Origin: Prevotella sp.
GTDB taxonomy: Bacteria > Bacteroidota > Bacteroidia > Bacteroidales > Bacteroidaceae
NCBI GenBank assembly: GCA_017619275.1
Contig: JAFZSR010000047.1
Location: 1-48,859 of the forward strand
Length of the DNA stretch: 48,859 nt
Direction: 5' to 3'
Part shown: positions 8,284-42,541 of the stretch, piece by piece
Layout of the letters: every line of letters starts with the position of its first letter
How positions within the stretch are numbered: the stretch's first letter is position 1
Notes under the pieces: generated by a model
Database searches by the model: none
Told to the model about the DNA's origin: nothing
What the model saw: only the letters and a program-made list of their open reading frames with translations
Made by a program: the position numbers and the translations under genes

Positions 8284-11079
8284 ATGAGCGGAAAGCCACA
8301 GAGAACACAGAGAACACGGAGCCTGACGATTGCTCTGTGTTCTCTGTGCTCTTTTTGGTTTTCTCTTTCCCTGCAAGCACAGTGCTGGCGCAGCGTCGAC
8401 GCGCGCATCGGCAGCGTGGGCGTGGGGCGCACCTTCCCCGGACCCGCCATGCCCTTTGGCATGGTGAAGCCCGGTCCCGACTGTGGCGTACTGCCCAACG
8501 CCGGTTGGGCGCCGATGCCCGAACGCGTGAGCGGATTCTCGCAGACGCACGTCAGCGGCACCGGCGGCGGACAGAAATACGGCAACATCCTCATCCAGCC
8601 TTTTACCGAGAAAAGCGCCGACATAGCACAACGGCGCACGAGCGAGACCATAGAACTAGGCTACTACGCCACCACCTACGAGAGTGGCATCCGCACCGAA
8701 ATCACCACCAGCGAGCGCTGCGCCCACTACCGGCTGCACTATCCCGCCCCCTCATCGGCTTCTCATTTCTCACTCCTTGTTGATGCCACCCATTTCCTGG
8801 GCAAGGACAGCATCCCCGACCTGCGCGAGCGCCAGCAGTTTGTGGGCGCCGAGGCGGAGGCCACCAGCGACCACGAGGTGGTGGGCTTTAACCGCGTGCG
8901 TGGCGGCTGGAACAACGGTGATGCCTACACGGTTTATTTCTGCCTGCAAACCGACAAGCCTTTTAAGCTGGAGAAACTAGATAAACTAGATGGACTAGCC
9001 AGGCTAGATAGACTAGATTATCTAGAAACCCCTGGTACTTTGGTCCTCTTTTTCGCCGACACGCTGGTGGGGGTGAAGGTGGGCATCAGCTATGTGAGCA
9101 CCATGCAGGCCCGCCGCAACATCGATGGCCATGGCTTCGATGAGCAGCTGGCACTCCTGCGCAATGCTTGGGAACAGCAGCTGCAGAAAATCCAAATCAC
9201 GGGCACCGACGCCCAGCGCCGCATGTTCTACACGGCGCTCTACCACACCATGCTGATGCCCATCGACAAGACGGGCGAAAACCCCAAGTGGACCGACGCG
9301 CCCTACTACGACGACTTTTATGCCATCTGGGACACCTACCGCACCTCGTCGCCCCTGCTCACGCTGCTTTGGCCCGAACGCCAGACGGCCATCGTCAATT
9401 CCTTGTTGAATATCTATAAACGCGAAGGCTACCTGCCCGATGCCCGCTCCGGCGATTGCAACGGGCGCACGCAGGGCGGCAGCAACGCCGAGGTAGTCAT
9501 CGCCGATGCCTTCGTAAAAGGTCTGGGAACACCCAACAATCTACAGTCTAAAGTCTATAGTCTACAGTCCATCGACTACAGTCTGGCCCTCGAAGCCATG
9601 CTGAAGGACGGCGACGTCGACCCAGGCGCCGACCAAGAGAAGCACGGGCGCGGCGGTCTGAACGAATACAAGCGTCTGGGCTACATTCCTTATGGTATCC
9701 CCCGCGCCGGCACCCGCACCATCGAGTACGCCTACAACGACTACTGCATCGCGCAGGTGGCACGCGGACTGGGCCGCAACGACGTTGCCGATGAGTACTT
9801 GCGTCGAAGCGGCAACTGGCGCAACCTCTGGCGCAGCGACTACGAGTGGGACGACGTGCGAGGCTACATCCTGCCCCGCGACGAAGACGGCCGCTGGCTC
9901 GACAGCGTGCCCTGGGGACATTCAAAAGTCTTCCATCCACTGATTCCCTACACGCCCGTGACGAAGGTGGCGCCCTGGTATCTGCCCTGGTGGGACACCT
10001 TCTTCTACGAAGCGCTCTCGGCCGAATACTCGCTGAGCATCCCCCACGACATTCCCGGACTCATCGAAGCCTGTGGCGGACCGGAGGCTTTCCGTCGCCG
10101 CCTGGACCTCTTCTTCGAGCGCGGCCGCTACAACGTGGGCAACGAGCCCTCGTTCCTCACGCCCTGCCTCTACCACTGGATGGGCCGCCCCGACCTTAGC
10201 ACGCAGCGCATCCACCAGATTATCAACGACAATTACAGCGATGCCCCCGACGGCTTGCCCGGCAACGACGATGGCGGCGCGATGTCGTCGTGGCTGGCGT
10301 TCCACATGATGGGCCTCTATCCCAATGCCGGGCAAGATTACTATCTGCTGAACGTGCCGATGCTCAATGAATATTCCTTCCGACTTCCCAACGACCGCAT
10401 CCTGCACGTCACCAAAAAAACCGCCAAAGCCTTTAAGGTCGTCCTCAACGGTCGCCAACTGAAGGATGCCCGCCTCACCCACAAGGAGCTGATGGAGGGT
10501 GGCGAACTGATGTTTCAGGCACCCACCCCCAACCCCTCCCGTGCGGGAGGGGCAACTGATTACACTCAAACCTCGATATTATCTGCAGCAAAAGTAACCG
10601 AACTCCCCTCCCATTCGGGAGGGGTTGGTGGTGGGTCTGTGGTTGGCGGGTATTCCATTTCCTTCACCCTCAACCGACAGTTCCGCACGTGGCCCCTCTC
10701 GTTCACTTGGCAGGGCGACACGCTCAACATCGTCTGCAAGCAGACCACCTATCGCATCCCACGCCACGAGGCAGTTCACGCCACGGGCTTCTGTTGGCTC
10801 AACCCCCAGAACGACGGCACCCTATATAATAATGTGCGTGGAACCTTCCTCTTCGTTTCTGCCGATGCCGTGCAACAGCTGCGCGCACAGGGTTTCTTCG
10901 TCTACGACGGCATCACTTGGCGACAAATGGGCGACAGCGAAAACCATGTACGGGCCGACATCGACGGCACGGAGCTGTGGATTGCCCACGACCCATCGAC
11001 AGGCTTGCATTTAGTGACCCAAATGCACCATAATCCATTGGGAATTGACTGGCAGTTGGAACCAGCTGCCGCCTTCTGA
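8284..11079 (+). CDS. GH92 family exo-alpha-mannosidase, exported, with repeat insertions
   Basis: Calcium-dependent glycoside hydrolase of family 92, which trims alpha-mannose from N-glycans or yeast mannan in the periplasm or at the surface. Family landmarks: GTGGGQKYGNILIQP near the N-terminus, DGDVDPG and HGRGGLNEYKRLGY in the middle, and GNDDGGAMSSWLAFHMMGLYP late. At 931 residues it is longer than usual (about 750). The excess matches five repeat-derived insertions: an inverted repeat encoding the signal peptide (8299-8348), heptamers at 8759-8779 and 9538-9586, six 9-bp repeats at 8977-9030, and a C-rich inverted repeat at 10521-10636. The family continuity KGL-IDYSLALEAML is interrupted by the second heptamer tract. 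All insertions keep the frame. Activity is likely but unproven, as the inserts could disturb folding. Confidence 0.9.
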   Translation: MSGKPQRTQRTRSLTIALCSLCSFWFSLSLQAQCWRSVDARIGSVGVGRTFPGPAMPFGMVKPGPDCGVLPNAGWAPMPERVSGFSQTHVSGTGGGQKYGNILIQPFTEKSADIAQRRTSETIELGYYATTYESGIRTEITTSERCAHYRLHYPAPSSASHFSLLVDATHFLGKDSIPDLRERQQFVGAEAEATSDHEVVGFNRVRGGWNNGDAYTVYFCLQTDKPFKLEKLDKLDGLARLDRLDYLETPGTLVLFFADTLVGVKVGISYVSTMQARRNIDGHGFDEQLALLRNAWEQQLQKIQITGTDAQRRMFYTALYHTMLMPIDKTGENPKWTDAPYYDDFYAIWDTYRTSSPLLTLLWPERQTAIVNSLLNIYKREGYLPDARSGDCNGRTQGGSNAEVVIADAFVKGLGTPNNLQSKVYSLQSIDYSLALEAMLKDGDVDPGADQEKHGRGGLNEYKRLGYIPYGIPRAGTRTIEYAYNDYCIAQVARGLGRNDVADEYLRRSGNWRNLWRSDYEWDDVRGYILPRDEDGRWLDSVPWGHSKVFHPLIPYTPVTKVAPWYLPWWDTFFYEALSAEYSLSIPHDIPGLIEACGGPEAFRRRLDLFFERGRYNVGNEPSFLTPCLYHWMGRPDLSTQRIHQIINDNYSDAPDGLPGNDDGGAMSSWLAFHMMGLYPNAGQDYYLLNVPMLNEYSFRLPNDRILHVTKKTAKAFKVVLNGRQLKDARLTHKELMEGGELMFQAPTPNPSRAGGATDYTQTSILSAAKVTELPSHSGGVGGGSVVGGYSISFTLNRQFRTWPLSFTWQGDTLNIVCKQTTYRIPRHEAVHATGFCWLNPQNDGTLYNNVRGTFLFVSADAVQQLRAQGFFVYDGITWRQMGDSENHVRADIDGTELWIAHDPSTGLHLVTQMHHNPLGIDWQLEPAAAF
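8299..8348. repeat. Inverted repeat forming the GH92 signal peptide
   Basis: CACAGAGAACACAGAG (8299-8314) is repeated as a perfect inverted copy at 8333-8348 with an 18-base spacer. The right arm is translated as LCSLCS within the hydrophobic stretch IALCSLCSFWFSLSLQA, so the repeat provides the core of the signal peptide. Confidence 0.85.
8759..8779. repeat. Short in-frame heptamer insertion in GH92
   Basis: Three consecutive heptamers (CTTCTCA, TTTCTCA, CTCCTTG) use the same unit as the inverted array at 2098-2125. They encode part of SASHFSLL between two conserved GH92 stretches. Confidence 0.55.
8977..9030. repeat. Six tandem 9-bp units (CTAGATnnn) in GH92
   Basis: CTAG recurs at 8977, 8986, 8995, 9004, 9013 and 9022, exactly every 9 bases. 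The array encodes alternating Leu-Asp/Glu residues (KLDKLDGLARLDRLDYLE), a low-complexity insertion in the N-terminal GH92 domain. CTAG is normally rare in bacterial coding DNA, which makes the array stand out. Confidence 0.88.
9538..9586. repeat. AGTCTAN heptamer tract inside GH92
   Basis: Seven heptamers in phase (AATCTAC, AGTCTAA, AGTCTAT, AGTCTAC, AGTCCAT, CGACTAC, AGTCTGG) share the unit of the array at 228-395. They encode NLQSKVYSLQSIDYSL. The insert of about 14 residues divides the otherwise continuous GH92 stretch before LALEAMLKDG. Confidence 0.88.
10521..10636. repeat. C-rich inverted repeat in the GH92 C-terminal region
   Basis: The outer arms 10521-10540 and 10617-10636 are complementary over 20 bases with one mismatch. 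Each arm also carries its own small hairpin (CCCCTCCC with GGGAGGGG). The 116-bp element is translated without a stop as a Pro/Ser/Gly-rich insert (APTPNPSRAGG ... GVGGGSVVGG). It resembles the ends of the larger elements at 30772 and 34670. Confidence 0.88.
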
Positions 11080-11080
11080 A

Positions 11081-11144
11081 ATTTTGGTAACGACTATTTG
11101 AAAAAAACTAACGACTTTTGAAAAAATCTCGTACGAGATTTTTT
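11081..11144. repeat. 64-bp dispersed element B with terminal palindrome, copy 1
   Basis: This segment is nearly identical (59 of 64 bases by eye) to 29693-29756. It contains two direct copies of a GTAACGA...TTTGAAAAA unit and ends in a perfect 24-bp palindrome (11121-11144, core ATCTCGTACGAGAT flanked by A6 and T6). It lies between the convergent GH92 and dusB genes and touches the dusB stop codon, so it should act as a bidirectional terminator. Confidence 0.9.
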
Positions 11145-24094: not shown

Positions 24095-24206
24095 GCTTCG
24101 GACACGCAGAAATTCTTCAAACTACGTCGTGGTTTTTATAAACTACGACGTAGTTTATAAAAACTGCGTCACGGTTTATATAGACCGCGTCGCAGTTTAA
24201 ACAAAT
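24095..24206. repeat. 112-bp dispersed element A, copy 1 (four palindromic units)
   Basis: Shares its whole 112-base length with 42430-42541. After a leader (GCTTCGGACACGCA) it contains four imperfect palindromes of about 17 bases on the plan AAACTACG-N-CGTAGTTT, spaced about 22 bases apart by AT-rich linkers (TATAAA type). The second unit here is a perfect palindrome. It follows the terminator of the DUF2795 gene. Confidence 0.9.
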
Positions 24207-29602: not shown

Positions 29603-29692
29603 CACCGTAGATTTATGATAGTTTATGAAGAAAAGCAGTTTGTATATCGGAAAGTTATAAATGCTTTACGCAAGGGGAATGCGCCTTCCATA

Positions 29693-29756
29693 ATTTTGGT
29701 AACGATTTTTTGAAAAACGGTAACGACTTTTGAAAAAATCTCGTACGAGATTTTTT
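29693..29756. repeat. 64-bp dispersed element B, copy 2
   Basis: Same length and about 59 of 64 identical bases as 11081-11144, including the perfect 24-bp palindrome (29733-29756). Here it lies downstream of the orphan promoter and would end any transcript from it. Confidence 0.9.
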
Positions 29757-29896: not shown

Positions 29897-31303
29897 TCAC
29901 TCAGGAAAAGCATATAGTAGATACTGCATGTTGCGCTCGGTAGGATAGTTGGTGAGTTGGCCAGAGCGGGTGACAAACGACAGGATGCCGTTATAAAGAC
30001 CATTGCCAAATGTGTATTGACCACCGTAGATGTTGATATAGTGAATGCGGCGGGCATCATAGTTCAGAAGGCGCTCAACGTCGTTGACGGGCATGCCGTC
30101 GATGAGCACCAGAGAAGGCAATGAGGTATTGAAGACTTCCTGCTCTTTACGGACAAGCAGCCGCGGCACTCCATTGATTTTCGTGTTTTTGACGCAAATC
30201 ACATATTCAAGGAGCACCTCCCTGACCGTGAGGAACTGGCGGTACTCGTCGAGATTATAGGATAGATCGGGCTTGGTGCCAAAGACGGTATCGTCATAGT
30301 CTAACATTGAACGTTCTTCGGCGAGCGAAGCGGCTGAGCCGAGCGGAGCGTTGGATAATGAACGTTGGCGGCGCTGCATCGCAATAGAGCGGGCTTCCAC
30401 CTCGATGCGATTATAATGGAACTCGAGATGCGGGAGTGTCTTAGGGATAAATGCAGCAAACGGACTTATCAACTCGATAGGCAAACTCTCGTCGGTGGAT
30501 GAGAGGGCAGAGAGAACCAACGGCAGCTTGCCATGAAGGCCGAAGGTGTAGAAGACGGCAATGGAGTCGTTGACCATCTTCCCCTCAAAAAAGTGTATCT
30601 GCTTCCCTATGATGCTCAAAGAAGGACGAATCTGGCTGGCAATGAAAGTTTGGCCTTCATGGACGTTCTTCACACGCGCCCGGATGATATGGCCTTCGAT
30701 TTCGGGCTCCTGCAGGCTCTCCCCCAGCAGGCTCTCCCCCAGCAGACCCACCCCCTGCCCCTCCCTGAAGAGAGAAGAAGACCCACCCCCTGCCCCTCCC
30801 TTGTAGGGAGGGGAGTATATAGACTTGCTATCGGAGGGCTTACAGTCGTTTGTGGAGTCAGCAGAACTATCTACTCCCCTCCCTACAAGGGAGGGGCTGG
30901 GGGAGGGTCTGCTGGGGGAGGGACTGCTGGTGGGGGCTTCCACCCATTCAATATCGTCGTCCACACTCTTGCGAAGGGGATTGATGACGGCAACATACTG
31001 TTGAGACACTTGAGCGTCGCTGCGCGTGTAGGCCGACAACAGATAGTAGCCGCTATGGAGGTCGGAAGGCAGTTCTATCAAGCCCTGTCCAGCTCCCCCT
31101 TTAAGCTCCACCATCACGCCAGCCACCAGTCCATGCGTATCACACAGTTCGGCGTAGGCTATCAAGGCATTGTCGGCAGTAATGCTGACCTTCATCGCCT
31201 CGCCGGCAACATACCATGCGCGGTCGGTCTCAACGTTTGCAGCAAAGCCGCTTAGGGCGAGCACCATCGCAGCTGCAAGTGATATTATTCTTTTCATCTT
31301 CAA
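29897..31303 (-). CDS. Exported MG2/plug-like protein with repeat insertions
   Basis: A 468-residue exported protein; signal peptide MKMKRIISLAAAMVLALSGFAA. The N-terminal ~120 residues resemble an alpha-2-macroglobulin MG2 beta-sandwich (DRAWYVAGEAMKVSITADNA; SGYYLLSAYTR). The C-terminal ~110 residues look like part of a TonB plug domain (VLIDGMPVNDVERLLNYDA, IHYINIYGG, GILSFVTRSG), but no barrel follows. Two repeat insertions lie between: element C with flanking repeats (about 30716-30940) and a 51-bp unit flanked by direct repeats (30308-30366). The start overlaps the DUF4249 stop by 4 bases (ATGA). It closes the six-gene operon; a role with the TonB receptor is inferred from position. Confidence 0.8.
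   Translation of the reverse strand: MKMKRIISLAAAMVLALSGFAANVETDRAWYVAGEAMKVSITADNALIAYAELCDTHGLVAGVMVELKGGAGQGLIELPSDLHSGYYLLSAYTRSDAQVSQQYVAVINPLRKSVDDDIEWVEAPTSSPSPSRPSPSPSLVGRGVDSSADSTNDCKPSDSKSIYSPPYKGGAGGGSSSLFREGQGVGLLGESLLGESLQEPEIEGHIIRARVKNVHEGQTFIASQIRPSLSIIGKQIHFFEGKMVNDSIAVFYTFGLHGKLPLVLSALSSTDESLPIELISPFAAFIPKTLPHLEFHYNRIEVEARSIAMQRRQRSLSNAPLGSAASLAEERSMLDYDDTVFGTKPDLSYNLDEYRQFLTVREVLLEYVICVKNTKINGVPRLLVRKEQEVFNTSLPSLVLIDGMPVNDVERLLNYDARRIHYINIYGGQYTFGNGLYNGILSFVTRSGQLTNYPTERNMQYLLYAFPE
30308..30366. repeat. 51-bp in-frame insertion flanked by TGAACGTT direct repeats
   Basis: TGAACGTT occurs at 30308-30315 and 30359-30366, a period of 51 bases (17 codons). The intervening GC-rich sequence (CGAGCGAAGCGGCTGAGCC, then GAGCGGAGCG) is self-complementary in parts. 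It is translated as SNAPLGSAASLAEE between two copies of an Arg-Ser-Leu/Met motif, which looks like an insertion with duplicated target. Confidence 0.75.
30772..30911. repeat. Dispersed element C, copy 1, inside the MG2/plug gene
   Basis: About 140 bases, nearly identical to 34670-34808. Each end has a G/C-rich hairpin (CCCCTCCCTTGTAGGGAGGGG-type, shown here only in part), and the centre holds GACTTGCTATCGGAGGGCTTA-like sequence. In the host gene it encodes LVGRGVDSSADSTN, KPSDSKS and SPPYKGGAGGG. The opposite strand is also open throughout. The end beyond 30911 and the start before 30772 carry further C-rich repeats, including a 15-bp tandem unit (CAGGCTCTCCCCCAG) near 30710-30740. Confidence 0.92.
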
Positions 31304-32463
31304 TATTCAATAATCCAAAAATCTGGTTTTTCTGCTTTCGCACCCCATAACCTGACATCGAGTTGAAAGTCGTATGCCCATGCCGTGCGCAACTTCCCCC
31401 CAGGCCTATCTCTTTCATCTACCCATTCACACAGGTACATGCCTTGGTCCACCGCCATTCGGTAGCAATCCAGTTCGCTACAGTCTTTGAGCCAGATGCG
31501 GGCGTCTTTTTTTACAGGATGGTAGATAGAGAAATCCACGGCTCTGAGGAAGAACCTGTGTTCGCTTGTGTTTAACGAGCATCCCACGAATCCAATCACG
31601 CGCTTGTGCGACGTGAGACAATGGATATTGGTGGGCAGGGCCGACGGTAGCGGCGTGAACAGGCCGCCCATCTCCGAGCTTGCCTGATGCCGTGCAAGCT
31701 CATATTCGTACTCGGCCTTTGAGATGGCCCGTTGCTGTATCAGACCGCTATAGTTGTAATACATACGCTCGTCGATACGGCTAATGTCGTAGAGTTTGAG
31801 GTTGCGGATGTGCTGCCCTTCGTAATTCAGGCTCGACCCAACCAGGATCTCCGAACTTGTCGCATTCTTCCATCCACGCGTTGGGAACTGGTGGGGATCG
31901 AAGACGGGTGACGACGTTTTTGTGTCGAAATAGATGACGGTGGTGTAGTCGGGATGCACTTCCCATGTCTCAACGTATGTCCATGAGTAGTAATTCGCCT
32001 TGTCGGGATTGAGAGGAGCATCGGGCGTAACGAACACGTCGATGTCACTCTCCGGTGTGCTCTGCACCACGTCCACATCGGCTATCTTCTCTGTAGGAAG
32101 AGGTTTCTGAGGTTCCGATTCGTAGACCTCCCCGTCGGTCTCGATATGTAAATAATACTCCACATCGGGGGCGAGGGCGTCAATCCAGCAAGCGTAATAA
32201 TCATCGGTTGCCTGCGCTATATATTCCGAGCCGTCGCTCCCGCGCACAGCGACTTTTGCCCCCGTCACCATCTGGGGGTTATAGGAAGTGTTGACGGGCT
32301 GCGTGCGCGACAAGATGAACTTATTTAATTGGGAAGAGCAAATCGAACCTTCAACAACGAGCAAGTCGGAATCCTCCGACGGGATGTCTGCCTCGTATTC
32401 TTCAATACAACCCGACAGGAAGCTTACGCCCACCACAAAGCATAACAATGAAAGTATCTTCAT
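31300..32463 (-). CDS. DUF4249 family lipoprotein
   Basis: Exported lipoprotein of 387 residues with lipobox LSGC (Cys at residue 19). The body matches the Bacteroidetes DUF4249 pattern: VVEGSICSSQLNKFILSRTQ near the N-terminus, AKVAVRGSDGSEYIA, and the DAL-PDVEYYLHIETDGEVYESE strand pair. Such proteins are typically encoded with TonB-dependent receptors that have no SusD and probably sit on the outer membrane. The start lies 2 bases after the receptor stop, and the end overlaps the next start by 4 bases, so translation is tightly coupled. The ligand is unknown. Confidence 0.87.
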   Translation of the reverse strand: MKILSLLCFVVGVSFLSGCIEEYEADIPSEDSDLLVVEGSICSSQLNKFILSRTQPVNTSYNPQMVTGAKVAVRGSDGSEYIAQATDDYYACWIDALAPDVEYYLHIETDGEVYESEPQKPLPTEKIADVDVVQSTPESDIDVFVTPDAPLNPDKANYYSWTYVETWEVHPDYTTVIYFDTKTSSPVFDPHQFPTRGWKNATSSEILVGSSLNYEGQHIRNLKLYDISRIDERMYYNYSGLIQQRAISKAEYEYELARHQASSEMGGLFTPLPSALPTNIHCLTSHKRVIGFVGCSLNTSEHRFFLRAVDFSIYHPVKKDARIWLKDCSELDCYRMAVDQGMYLCEWVDERDRPGGKLRTAWAYDFQLDVRLWGAKAEKPDFWIIEY

Positions 32464-32465
32464 AT

Positions 32466-35400
32466 TTAGTTGAATCGAATGTTAAGTGAAACAAAAGGAA
32501 TGGCAGTGCCAAACACCGACAACTTATACCCTTTCACCCTACTCCCTTCGTTGACATAATAGATGGTATAGGCATTTCTGCGTGCAAGGGCATTGTAGAC
32601 ACCTAAAGAGAACGACGTGTGAAGGAAGCTCGTCAGCCGATGGGTCGGCTCAATGTTGAACGCCAGGTCCAGGCGCATATAGTCGGGAATACGATAGGTG
32701 TTGCGGTCGGTATAGTACGGCCTGTATTTCTTGTTATATGAGTCGTAATACTGTCCGGCTGGCAACGTCGTCGGTCGACCTGTGGCATAATTGAAATTGC
32801 TCGAAAGGCTATACCGCTCGGTAAACTTGTAGTTCACCACAGCCTTTACCTCGTGAGGCCTGTCGTATTCCGTGGGGTACCAGTCGCCGTTGTTCAAAGG
32901 TATTGACACGCGCTCGTCGTCTTGACGGACCAAAGAGCGCGAGAAGGTGTAACTCACCCATCCATTCATCTTTCCTATCGGTTTCTTTGCCTGCAGTTCT
33001 ATGCCGTATGCCCGCCCCTTGGTCGAGATGACGTCGGTCTCAAGGTGGTGGTTCATCAGCAGGACTGCGGAACTGCGATAATTCAGATAGTCGCTGATAT
33101 GCTTGTAGTAAGCCTCGGCCGAGAACTCGTAGGCTTTGTTGGCAGTCTCATGATAGATGCCAGCAGCCAACTGCCAACCGCTCTGGGGCTTGATGTTAAG
33201 GTCGGAAAGCTTCCAGATATCAGTAGGCGACATAATCAGCGTGTTCGACACTTTGTGGATATACTGGTGCATGGTGTTGAATCCGGCCTTCAACGAGAGG
33301 TTCTCCTGCAGCGTATAGCGGGCCGACAGGCGTAGCTCGGGAGCGTGATAGGTCTTGATGACGCCCGTTTCATGACGCGTCTCCAACAGCGTACCCTCGG
33401 CTGGCAGCTCACCGTCGTGATAATAATTCACGTCGCGAGGACCAAGTGCATTGAACATGGAATAGCGCAAACCGGCAGCCACCGACAGCTTTTCGGTGAG
33501 CGAGCGGTCGTAGTCGATATAGGCGGCGCTCTCCAACGCCTTTTCCCTCTGCAACTGGTCGGTCGTTACGCACGACAGCTCACCCACCGGCTCATACTTG
33601 CCAGCCTGCACATTGTAGTGCTGCATGGAAAGTCCGTATGAGAGGGTCTGCGCTTCGGAAAGACGTTGACGGATGTGCAGCTTACCCCACAGCTGGTCGA
33701 TGCTGAAACTCAATCGGGCAGCCTCGGTAGCAATGTTCCTGTCCTCATTGAAATAGCCGTAGTGGTCGAGTCCGGCAGAAAAAGTAGCCGTCACTTTCTC
33801 ATTCAGGATAGAGCGCCACTCTGCCGAGAGGTTGCGGTTTTGATACCCATAATTATCTTTCGAGCTGAACGAGAACTTGTCGTTACTCCAATAGCCATAA
33901 AGCTTGAAGCGGTGCATGTCGTTGATTTTCCACGTCAGCACGCCACCCACATCCTGGAAGTTTGCGCTGCCGTTTTTGTAGCCACTCTTCTCGGGCAGCT
34001 TCTTCAGAATCCAGTCGCTATAAGTGGTACGACCATTCAACAGCAGCGACACCCGCTCCTTAACAATGGGCAGCTCGATATTCGCCTTGCTGGTAAGCGC
34101 ACCAATACTGGCCTGACCGGTAAGCTTCTGCATATTCGCCTCCTTCGAAGCCACTTTCAGCACGCTGCTTATCCTGCCTCCATATTCTACAGGAATACTC
34201 GACTTGAACAGCTCTACGTCCTCTACCGCATCCGAATTGAACGAGGTGAAGAGCCCGAACAGGTGCGACGGATTATACACCGTTCCTCCATTCAGAAGGA
34301 TGAGGTTCTGGTCGGTAGCACCTCCTCGCACGTTATAGCCGCTCGAGGCCTCGCCAACGGTAGTGACGCCTGGCAGGGTGAGCACTATCTTCATGATATC
34401 CGACTCGCCAAAGGCCGACGGGATATTCTTCAGCACCTGGGGCTTGAATTTCTCGGAACCAATCATCATATTGTTCACAGCCGACTGGCGCCCACCTACA
34501 ACCACAATCTCGGCCAGTTCCTGGTCATCGGCAACACTTGCCTGTGCCTTCTGCACGCCCGGCACCACATAGACCTTTGTTCCTGTCGAACCCGTCACCG
34601 TAACCGTGTCGCTATCAAGGACAGGGATGCCAGTGATAAAAAGACCCTCCCCCGACCCCTCCCTAGAGGGAGAAGAAGACCCACCCCCATCCCCTCCCTT
34701 GTAGGGAGGGGCGCAATTAGACTTGCTATCAGAGGGCTTACTGTTGTTTGTGGAGTCAGCAGAACTATCTACTCCCCTCCCTCCAGGGAGGGGCCGGGGG
34801 AGGGTCTGGAGGGGCTGGGGGGTGGGTCTGCTTTCAACCAGCTTCACAAGGCTCATCTCACGCTCCTTCTTTGAAAAGGAAAGGTGGTTCTTCTTCGCGA
34901 ACTGTTTAATTTGCTTGCTCTGCTCGGGGAATATTTTTGCCACATCCGAGGCACGCTTCACATGATGCATTTCGCCGTCTGCAGTGATGAGCGTATAAAG
35001 TTCTTCGGTACTAAGGGTCCTGAGGTATCTTCTTCCTCCAAAAGTACCTTCACGGCTAATCACTTTCCACACACTATGATAAAGACGGATGCCGTTGGTG
35101 CTTCCATCGCAAAGCAGCGACGCATATCGCGAGCCGTCCTCCGGATCGTGCACATATCTGTGACCATCCATCTCGAACCAGTCGACAAATTCCTGCTCGG
35201 GCAGACAAATCACCCTCCTCCCAGGAGGGAAAACAACAACACACTGCTTCAATTGGTCGAAACGCAGCTGCACATCGTCGTAAACCACGCCGTGATAGCT
35301 GATACGGCCTTTATACATATCAGTAGTGCCTTTATAGTAAGGCAGGTCGTGCCACAACGATATGGGATATTGAGGCTCAACGGCCCCCACATACAGGCGA

Positions 35401-35531
35401 GCGAAATCGGAAGCAGAGGAAAGGCTACGGGTAGGCTCGGGAATGAAATACTCCTGAGCTTTAGCATTCTGTATGACAATCAGCATACAGGCAATCAGCA
35501 ACAAATACTTTTTCATGCGCCATCCATTCAT
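32466..35531 (-). CDS. TonB-dependent receptor with an unusual N-terminal domain
   Basis: Outer-membrane receptor of 1021 residues. The frame starts MNGWRMKKYLLL; Met6 gives a standard signal peptide (MKKYLLLIACMLIVIQNAKA). About 180 residues of unrecognised sequence follow (EYFIPEPTRSLSSASDFARL; later LRTLSTEELYTLITADGEMH) instead of the usual carboxypeptidase-like domain. Element C is inserted after this domain (34670-34808). The plug (VLTLPGVTTVGEASSGYNVRG; VYNPSHLFGLFTSFN) and a full barrel complete the protein, which ends SLNIRFN. The start overlaps the retropepsin gene stop by 4 bases. No SusD homologue is present. The operon partners suggest uptake of a carbohydrate or esterified product, but this is inference. 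Confidence 0.88.
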   Translation of the reverse strand: MNGWRMKKYLLLIACMLIVIQNAKAQEYFIPEPTRSLSSASDFARLYVGAVEPQYPISLWHDLPYYKGTTDMYKGRISYHGVVYDDVQLRFDQLKQCVVVFPPGRRVICLPEQEFVDWFEMDGHRYVHDPEDGSRYASLLCDGSTNGIRLYHSVWKVISREGTFGGRRYLRTLSTEELYTLITADGEMHHVKRASDVAKIFPEQSKQIKQFAKKNHLSFSKKEREMSLVKLVESRPTPQPLQTLPRPLPGGRGVDSSADSTNNSKPSDSKSNCAPPYKGGDGGGSSSPSREGSGEGLFITGIPVLDSDTVTVTGSTGTKVYVVPGVQKAQASVADDQELAEIVVVGGRQSAVNNMMIGSEKFKPQVLKNIPSAFGESDIMKIVLTLPGVTTVGEASSGYNVRGGATDQNLILLNGGTVYNPSHLFGLFTSFNSDAVEDVELFKSSIPVEYGGRISSVLKVASKEANMQKLTGQASIGALTSKANIELPIVKERVSLLLNGRTTYSDWILKKLPEKSGYKNGSANFQDVGGVLTWKINDMHRFKLYGYWSNDKFSFSSKDNYGYQNRNLSAEWRSILNEKVTATFSAGLDHYGYFNEDRNIATEAARLSFSIDQLWGKLHIRQRLSEAQTLSYGLSMQHYNVQAGKYEPVGELSCVTTDQLQREKALESAAYIDYDRSLTEKLSVAAGLRYSMFNALGPRDVNYYHDGELPAEGTLLETRHETGVIKTYHAPELRLSARYTLQENLSLKAGFNTMHQYIHKVSNTLIMSPTDIWKLSDLNIKPQSGWQLAAGIYHETANKAYEFSAEAYYKHISDYLNYRSSAVLLMNHHLETDVISTKGRAYGIELQAKKPIGKMNGWVSYTFSRSLVRQDDERVSIPLNNGDWYPTEYDRPHEVKAVVNYKFTERYSLSSNFNYATGRPTTLPAGQYYDSYNKKYRPYYTDRNTYRIPDYMRLDLAFNIEPTHRLTSFLHTSFSLGVYNALARRNAYTIYYVNEGSRVKGYKLSVFGTAIPFVSLNIRFN
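34670..34808. repeat. Dispersed element C, copy 2, inside the TonB receptor
   Basis: Aligns over its full length with 30772-30911; the differences are a few substitutions and a 1-base difference in a hairpin. It encodes GGRGVDSSADSTN, KPSDSKS and APPYKGGDGGGSSS, the same reading frame as copy 1. It lies between the N-terminal domain and the plug. Another C-rich flank follows up to about 34830. Confidence 0.92.
35420..35445. repeat. Dispersed repeat E, short version, in the TonB receptor
   Basis: AAAGGCTACGGGTAGG followed by CTCGGGAATG is the sequence at 24305-24339 without 9 central bases. Here it encodes IPEPTRSLS right after the receptor signal peptide. Confidence 0.55.
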
Positions 35532-42429: not shown

Positions 42430-42541
42430 GCTTCGGACACGCAAACATTCTTCAAACTACGTCGCAGTTTTTATAAATTACGTCGTAGTTTATAAAAACC
42501 ACGTCACAGTTTATATAAACCGCGTCGCAGTTTAAACAAAT
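42430..42541. repeat. 112-bp dispersed element A, copy 2
   Basis: Same layout and length as 24095-24206: leader GCTTCGGACACGCA and four palindromes spaced about 22 bases (ACTACGTCGCAGTTT, ATTACGTCGTAGTTT, ACCACGTCACAGTTT, ACCGCGTCGCAGTTT). It stands downstream of the ARH gene and 86 bases before the promoter of the small winged-helix gene. Confidence 0.9.

Follow-up and report, generated by a model that had tools for sequence, protein, structure and literature searches.

The DNA analyzed here, referred to below as the window, is the whole 48,859-nucleotide stretch at positions 1 to 48,859 of contig JAFZSR010000047.1, from the Prevotella sp. assembly GCA_017619275.1. On its minus strand lies an apparent operon in which two genes each carry, in frame and on the coding strand, a copy of one palindromic repeat element, here called type A. 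The core of copy 1 (30779..30909; nhmmer, 112.8 bits) reads PSPSPSLVGRGVDSSADSTNDCKPSDSKSIYSPPYKGGAGGGS and, with 15-bp tail repeats (GCAGGCTCTCCCCCA; GCTGGGGGAGGGTCT) amounting to five codons per unit, extends over 30712..30930, as judged from Tandem Repeats Finder and the sequence. Its host (29897..31303; 468 amino acids) was called an MG2/plug gene in an earlier note made from the letters alone; the product had no match in a Pfam scan, so the name is a label without domain support, and Prevotella-type orthologues have a shorter linker at this site. The core of copy 2 (34677..34806; 106.0 bits) reads TLPRPLPGGRGVDSSADSTNNSKPSDSKSNCAPPYKGGDGGGS and, with partial extra hairpin and tail units, extends over 34641..34830 (Tandem Repeats Finder and the ungapped repeat D2, described below). 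Its host (32466..35531; 1,021 amino acids) is a TonB-dependent receptor, as the earlier note had proposed, with a Plug domain. The gene between the two hosts (31300..32463; DUF4249 by Pfam) belongs to the same apparent operon and is free of the element.

On the coding strand each copy consists of a tail, a hairpin (CCCCTCCC-loop-GGGAGGGG), a spacer, an inverted hairpin, and a tail, and both copies are translated in one frame as GRGVDSSADSTN..KPSDSKS..PPYKGGxGGGS. The ungapped repeat D2 covers 159 nucleotides (30744-30902 versus 34642-34800) at 87% identity, and BLAST aligned the copies at 89% identity over query bases 9 to 181 of 181. The sequence and the translated open reading frames (ORFs) thus bear out the earlier claim of two same-frame copies in one operon; the copies are clearly related, for which "near-identical" was slightly generous, and the real unit, a roughly 130-bp core flanked by tails, is longer than the 140 bp given before. 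The opposite strand is indeed open across both copies (ORFs 30533-31255 and 33666-34874). Predicted RNA folds were very stable for copy 1 (30740-30920; -110.9 kcal/mol, z = -6.5 versus shuffles) and copy 2 (34642-34822; -117.3 kcal/mol, z = -8.2), and an Rfam search with the element returned just sub-threshold microRNA look-alikes and one long noncoding RNA. The copies are each other's closest full-length relatives, the next copy matching at 77% over most of the query, so one was probably derived from the other, or both from a common source.

A related third copy, overlooked earlier, lies at 10520..10636 on the plus strand (type C; 108.9 bits), in frame in a GH92 glycosidase gene (8284..11076, plus strand; 931 amino acids; Pfam Glyco_hydro_92), where it reads APTPNPSRAGGATDYTQTSILSAAKVTELPSHSGGVGGG. 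The window holds 6 instances of the hairpin pattern CCCTCCC-N2-10-GGGAGGG, versus 0 in 100 shuffles, and the whole genome holds 179, versus 0 for the reversed pattern, which argues that the repeat is not due to chance. The genome search advised in the earlier note thus revealed a dispersed repeat in unrelated genes. Copies were examined in 78 tracts, the window among them, that total 376 kb of the 3.59 Mb and were chosen by match to the repeat searches; 40 of the 124 candidates from BLAST were scored, and hairpin-pattern places were taken from contigs up to 28, so that type C is undersampled further on. Types were assigned by loop sequence (A, loop around TTGTA; C, loop G..C; B, loop CCCTCCCTTCAAGGGGAGGG with outer GCGCAGCC ends). 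Profile hidden Markov models for A and C, with all three window copies among the seeds, identified 47 full-length elements (29 A and 18 C) and 14 partial ones. The unit comprises two inverted GC-rich hairpins, about 100 to 135 bp plus tails, and G-quadruplex-type motifs were found on both strands in 26 of 45 A/C elements. One type C copy (G000:C59:19448-19551) lies between convergent genes, preceded by an A-run and followed by a T-run, and has the shape of a two-way terminator.

Family B, with 45 matches in the genome search, is an inside-out sister (e.g., C85:65236 and C72:69534) with outer GCGCAGCC ends and inward-facing tails, mostly 122 bp long; some of its hairpins have the altered core CCGTAAGGGCAGGGTTCAGG. 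Closed reading frames were considered as the cause of its intergenic position and rejected, because each of 12 complete copies has two to three open frames. The length of 10 of these 12 is 122 bp (3n+2), so that insertion would shift the frame.

With 2 of the 47 full-length A/C elements at contig ends, 45 could be judged, and 25 of these (17 A and 8 C) were in frame inside genes according to a codon model whose training set was the long ORFs of the 78 tracts. Thus, the copies are not nearly all intergenic without frame bias, an outcome that had been named beforehand as speaking against insertion. All but one of the in-frame copies (24 of 25) have a single orientation relative to the gene, and the one reverse insertion compares with 8.33 expected if open frames were equally likely to be used (P = 1.7e-4). 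Most seeds of the models were oriented by their host gene, and orientation calls lean on the host to that extent; forward and reverse scores are still clearly apart for most A elements. The frame GRGVDSSA...KSIYSPPYKGGAGGG is used by 13 of the 17 full-length in-frame A copies. When elements were counted by the strict hairpin pattern (with "A" standing for anything neither B nor C, and clusters at edges left out: 3 A, 1 C, and 4 B), 19 of 38 A, 7 of 17 C, and 0 of 34 B were in frame. The result for B, together with 1 in-frame cluster among 33 in the relative G019 (see below), indicates that the test does not call all hairpins in frame.

Most of the 20 A/C copies that are not in frame occupy the space between ORFs or the end of one. 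The four neighbor pairs tested proved to be unrelated proteins by Pfam (LptF/G versus RibBA, ABC-2 versus HlyD-like, acyltransferase versus fucosidase, and aldehyde dehydrogenase versus arginine deiminase), and no clearly broken gene was seen among the 20, part of whose neighbor pairs were tested. The codon positions are similarly variable among genic copies, so no signature of selection on the peptide was seen in this small sample.

Including partial elements, 28 in-frame elements occupy 27 genes, of which 26 were compared with Pfam (the host at C27:3078 was left out). Among the hosts are UvrA (two inserts), DnaG, the large subunit of exonuclease VII (XseA), a PDDEXK nuclease, a PIF1-like helicase, and the CCA-adding enzyme. 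Others are DegT aminotransferase, FAA hydrolase, TerC, SDH_alpha, PPDK_N, a hybrid two-component regulator, a TamB-like protein, an ABC ATPase, and GH2, GH43, and GH92 glycosidases. Several inserts fall between domains: HATPase and receiver (L019), PAS and HisKA (L011), two ABC halves (L028), the RNA-binding and HD domains of the CCA enzyme (L074), and GH43 and C2 (L067, the sole reverse copy). At least six lie within a Pfam domain match (FAA, PPDK_N, DegT, TerC, SDH_alpha, and UvrA_inter).

Absence of the element from orthologues was compared for five hosts (UvrA, FAA hydrolase, DegT, the TonB receptor, and the MG2 gene). In UvrA the element is absent at both sites from all 19 same-genus orthologues (69 to 83% identical), three of which (G012, G018, and G022) have different extra sequence at one or both sites, and the alignment with a solved UvrA has gaps at the insert sites. 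For FAA hydrolase and DegT, solved homologues align on each flank and not through the insert; for the CCA enzyme and SDH_alpha, such alignments either stop short of the insert or pass over more than the insert itself, and so say little. The window hosts were compared across 79 loci, mostly from Prevotella or Prevotellaceae metagenome-assembled genomes (MAGs), many of them ruminant derived, with a few from Bacteroides. The linkers of the TonB (n = 70) and MG2 (n = 68) orthologues differ from those in the window and vary among species. None carried the window's linker sequence, whose presence in orthologues had been set beforehand as refuting insertion; some hold other GC-rich palindromes. By eye, a GC-rich palindrome with other peptides is present in 9 of the 70 TonB linkers (L174, L194, L198, L199, L206, L207, L218, L232, and L243), and in L194 and L243 one is present in both the TonB and the MG2 linker. 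The peptide pattern SRYSQDEL..TTPLPHREG is common to L194, L199, L206, and probably L198, and these four may therefore be one inherited insertion rather than four. Any hairpin of at least 7 bp was found in 18 of 71 TonB linkers and 7 of 69 MG2 linkers (window included, nine loci omitted beforehand) versus 59 of 700 random 150-nucleotide stretches; linker hairpins are enriched for TonB and not for MG2. The TonB linkers of L215 and L219 carry another repeat, read as MDNGQWTMDNGQL and similar, unlike the GC-rich elements.

Among 60 genomes (own included), the hairpin was found in 29 and, counted by genus, in 3 of 25. Its number is lineage specific: the near relatives G013, G018, G020, and G022 have 1, 1, 3, and 12 copies, and G019, G034, and the genome studied here (G000) have 213, 148, and 179. 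In the first listed stretches of G019 and G034, scored with the codon model trained on G000, 1 of 33 and 6 of 17 clusters were in frame. G019 was accordingly rejected as a second case, and its count indicates that the in-frame habit is not general to GC-rich hairpins of the genus. Coding-compatible elements recur in the genus and are not universal there.

Other repeats were also observed in the window. A 112-nucleotide repeat (24095-24206 and 42430-42541; 91% identity), with inverted repeats around AAACTACG..TTTATAAA, is another dispersed palindrome, and a 75-nucleotide repeat (11070-11144 and 29682-29756; 89% identity) contains the palindrome AAAAAATCTCGTACGAGATTTTTT. Arrays of 7-bp-type units (TCTANAG; GTGAGAAG) lie at 209-397, 1997-2128, and 9526-9595, the second with inverted partners. 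TonB linkers of two other species (L036 and L033) contain the repeat-like peptides KSEELRTKSEELR and SERLEVRSERSEV, and it is a guess that these are linked to the TCTANAG-type arrays.

We consider it likely that A and C are forms of a non-autonomous dispersed palindromic repeat that has spread in the Prevotella lineage and survives either between genes or in frame within them. Such a repeat would spread to many places in the genome, gene-breaking insertions would presumably be lost, with selection as the main filter, and surviving copies would lie between genes or within genes in one orientation and frame. A genic copy would add a stop-free stretch of about 30 to 45 residues, rich in Ser, Gly, and Pro, to a tolerant loop or interdomain linker. 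The repeat would be moved by some enzyme, translated with its host, and tolerated as a flexible loop, and its peptide may serve as a flexible linker; varying element and tail length, including the 15-bp tail units, may let A and C fit the frame. The earlier proposal of a mobile in-frame repeat stands as regards dispersal, in-frame insertion, absence from the compared orthologues, and bias in orientation and frame. There is no support for its further claim of a repeat evolved for insertion into genes: no signature of peptide selection was seen, and much of the pattern can be put down to harmful insertions having been lost.

Several points weigh against the selective-survival reading. Four of the 20 copies not called in frame are of ambiguous placement: neither side of C95:7564 has a Pfam match, and C98, C6:3282, and C120:9943 sit either inside an open ORF, one flank being weak, or where ORFs overlap. 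Open frames by themselves predict more reverse copies than were seen, so that filtering by stop codons can be only part of the explanation; hosts may tolerate the reverse peptide less well, and the purging of harmful insertions would account for much of the pattern but leave part of the orientation bias over. Insertion borders were defined from diverged orthologues alone, and the genome itself is 85% complete and probably a MAG. The presence of the inserted peptide in the finished protein is something that we infer from the DNA, and no mobilizing enzyme was found in a search aimed at Y1 transposases only.

These observations also bear on other explanations. The element could be kept for a benefit, through mRNA structure (a hairpin or a G-quadruplex) or a spacer peptide that slows translation or adds a linker at interdomain sites. 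The inserts between domains, the very stable RNA folds and G-quadruplex-type motifs, the other repeats in some of the same linkers in other species, and the excess orientation bias are consistent with this; the inserts within domain matches, the uniform variation of codon positions, and the 20 copies not in frame make it unlikely. Insertion might instead be oriented by transcription or replication (e.g., by single-strand targeting) before selection acts, and this would fit the single orientation of 24 of 25 copies even though many elements have an open reverse frame. We regard such targeting as quite unlikely, considering not-in-frame copies whose two flanks score as coding in the same direction: all five such A elements run against the genes, which indicates that the orientation of A is not fixed by transcription alone, and all five such C elements run with them (C6:3282 and C120:9943 being in overlapping ORFs). 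An assembly artifact, or low-complexity drift of a native linker, appears highly improbable despite the several repeats near contig ends and the differing lengths and sequences of orthologue linkers, because the same DNA element occurs in unrelated genes and the flanks of the UvrA, DegT, and FAA hydrolase inserts match one and the same protein.

A more specific possibility is that the elements are REPINs, doublets of repetitive extragenic palindromes (REPs) moved by a REP-associated tyrosine transposase (RAYT) of the Y1 HUH type. Two REP-like hairpins with tails are present in inverted orientation, copy number is high, and direct repeats of at least 3 bp were absent from the ends of 36 of 45 elements and 3 to 6 bp long in the other nine, several end positions having been tried. 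Target-site duplications, a hallmark of miniature inverted-repeat transposable elements (MITEs), are thus mostly missing. By eye, terminal inverted repeats, another MITE feature, are visible as AGACCC..GGGTCT in most A and as AACCCACC..GGTGGGTT in several C copies, AGTAG stands directly 3' of the left hairpin and not at its 5' base in most A copies, and no GTAG/CGTC-type tag was seen in C copies. The genome has a RAYT-like gene (NCBIfam REP_Tyr_transpos, 75 bits; cutoff, 80). That gene, however, is the sole Y1-type match in the genome (141 amino acids; G000:C62, L031:950-2060) and is flanked by palindromes of another family, its own GGATTTGYAATCC with GCAGTGAGTATAAGG; the locus is likely a separate REP/RAYT system. 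The genome and 59 relatives were searched, and 51 Y1_Tnp loci (own, 30, and 20), part of the matches listed, were examined: the CCCTCCC hairpin was near 1 of them (G022, about 1.1 kb from a sub-cutoff match), and G019, with its 213 hairpins, has no Y1_Tnp match. A REPIN origin is therefore very unlikely in our assessment.

Beyond selective survival of a single repeat, a broader pattern can be put forward tentatively, at somewhat less than even chances: several lineage-specific Prevotella palindromes would have coding sequence as their main niche, their arms keeping one frame from host to host, and the same linkers and loops (TonB, MG2, and UvrA) would be repeatedly invaded in different species, as a recurrent source of peptides for housekeeping proteins. 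The Prevotella element itself adds common gut bacteria to the range of protein-coding palindromes, so far Rickettsiales and scattered cases of REPs; family B provides a built-in control, and dozens of orthologues can polarize the insertions. It would allow the share of short mobile DNA in protein evolution to be measured, and it raises the question of what makes uvrA and other DNA-repair genes a target in unrelated phyla.

The earlier note regarded the frame tolerance as unusual; precedents exist. Rickettsia palindromic elements (RPEs) are described as 105- to 146-bp palindromic repeats with an open frame, either intergenic or fused in frame in conserved genes (PMC2229807). The Prevotella element is likewise a dispersed palindrome, in frame and stop free in conserved genes whose homologues are without it, but it differs in its Bacteroidales host and in its two GC-rich hairpins with G-rich tails. 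The likeness is one of kind, with no homology claimed, and the nearest named relatives of the host gene are from Prevotella or Prevotellaceae, not Rickettsia. GTAG/CGTC REPs are reported as hairpins and hairpin dimers inside ORFs, with many DNA-repair hosts, among them uvrA with two REP insertions in O. terrae and Thioalkalivibrio; these REPs are described as mostly intergenic, and CGTC repeats are reported in the phylum Bacteroidetes (PMC3733652). The Prevotella element also lies inside ORFs, including UvrA with two inserts; in contrast to the mostly intergenic REPs, it is in frame in 25 of the 45 A/C copies judged. A GTAG/CGTC tag does not stand out clearly at the base of its hairpins, and no RAYT was found linked to it among the loci examined. 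The Correia/NEMIS repeats of Neisseria are described as having a coding-competent form in genes beside a related, almost solely intergenic form (PMC2229807), a division resembling that between genic A/C and not-in-frame B, except that Prevotella B is not closed by stops and is mostly of a frame-shifting length. No Bacteroidales case of in-frame palindrome insertion was found in the literature searched, a weak negative, as subscription papers and the intragenic list of PMC3733652 lay outside its scope. By analogy, the Prevotella element appears to work like the protein-coding palindromes of Rickettsia, a kind already known, and, as far as the cited accounts go, differs from known cases in its bacterial order, the fixed frame of most A copies, the slight in-frame majority among judged copies, and the lack of a linked RAYT among the loci examined.

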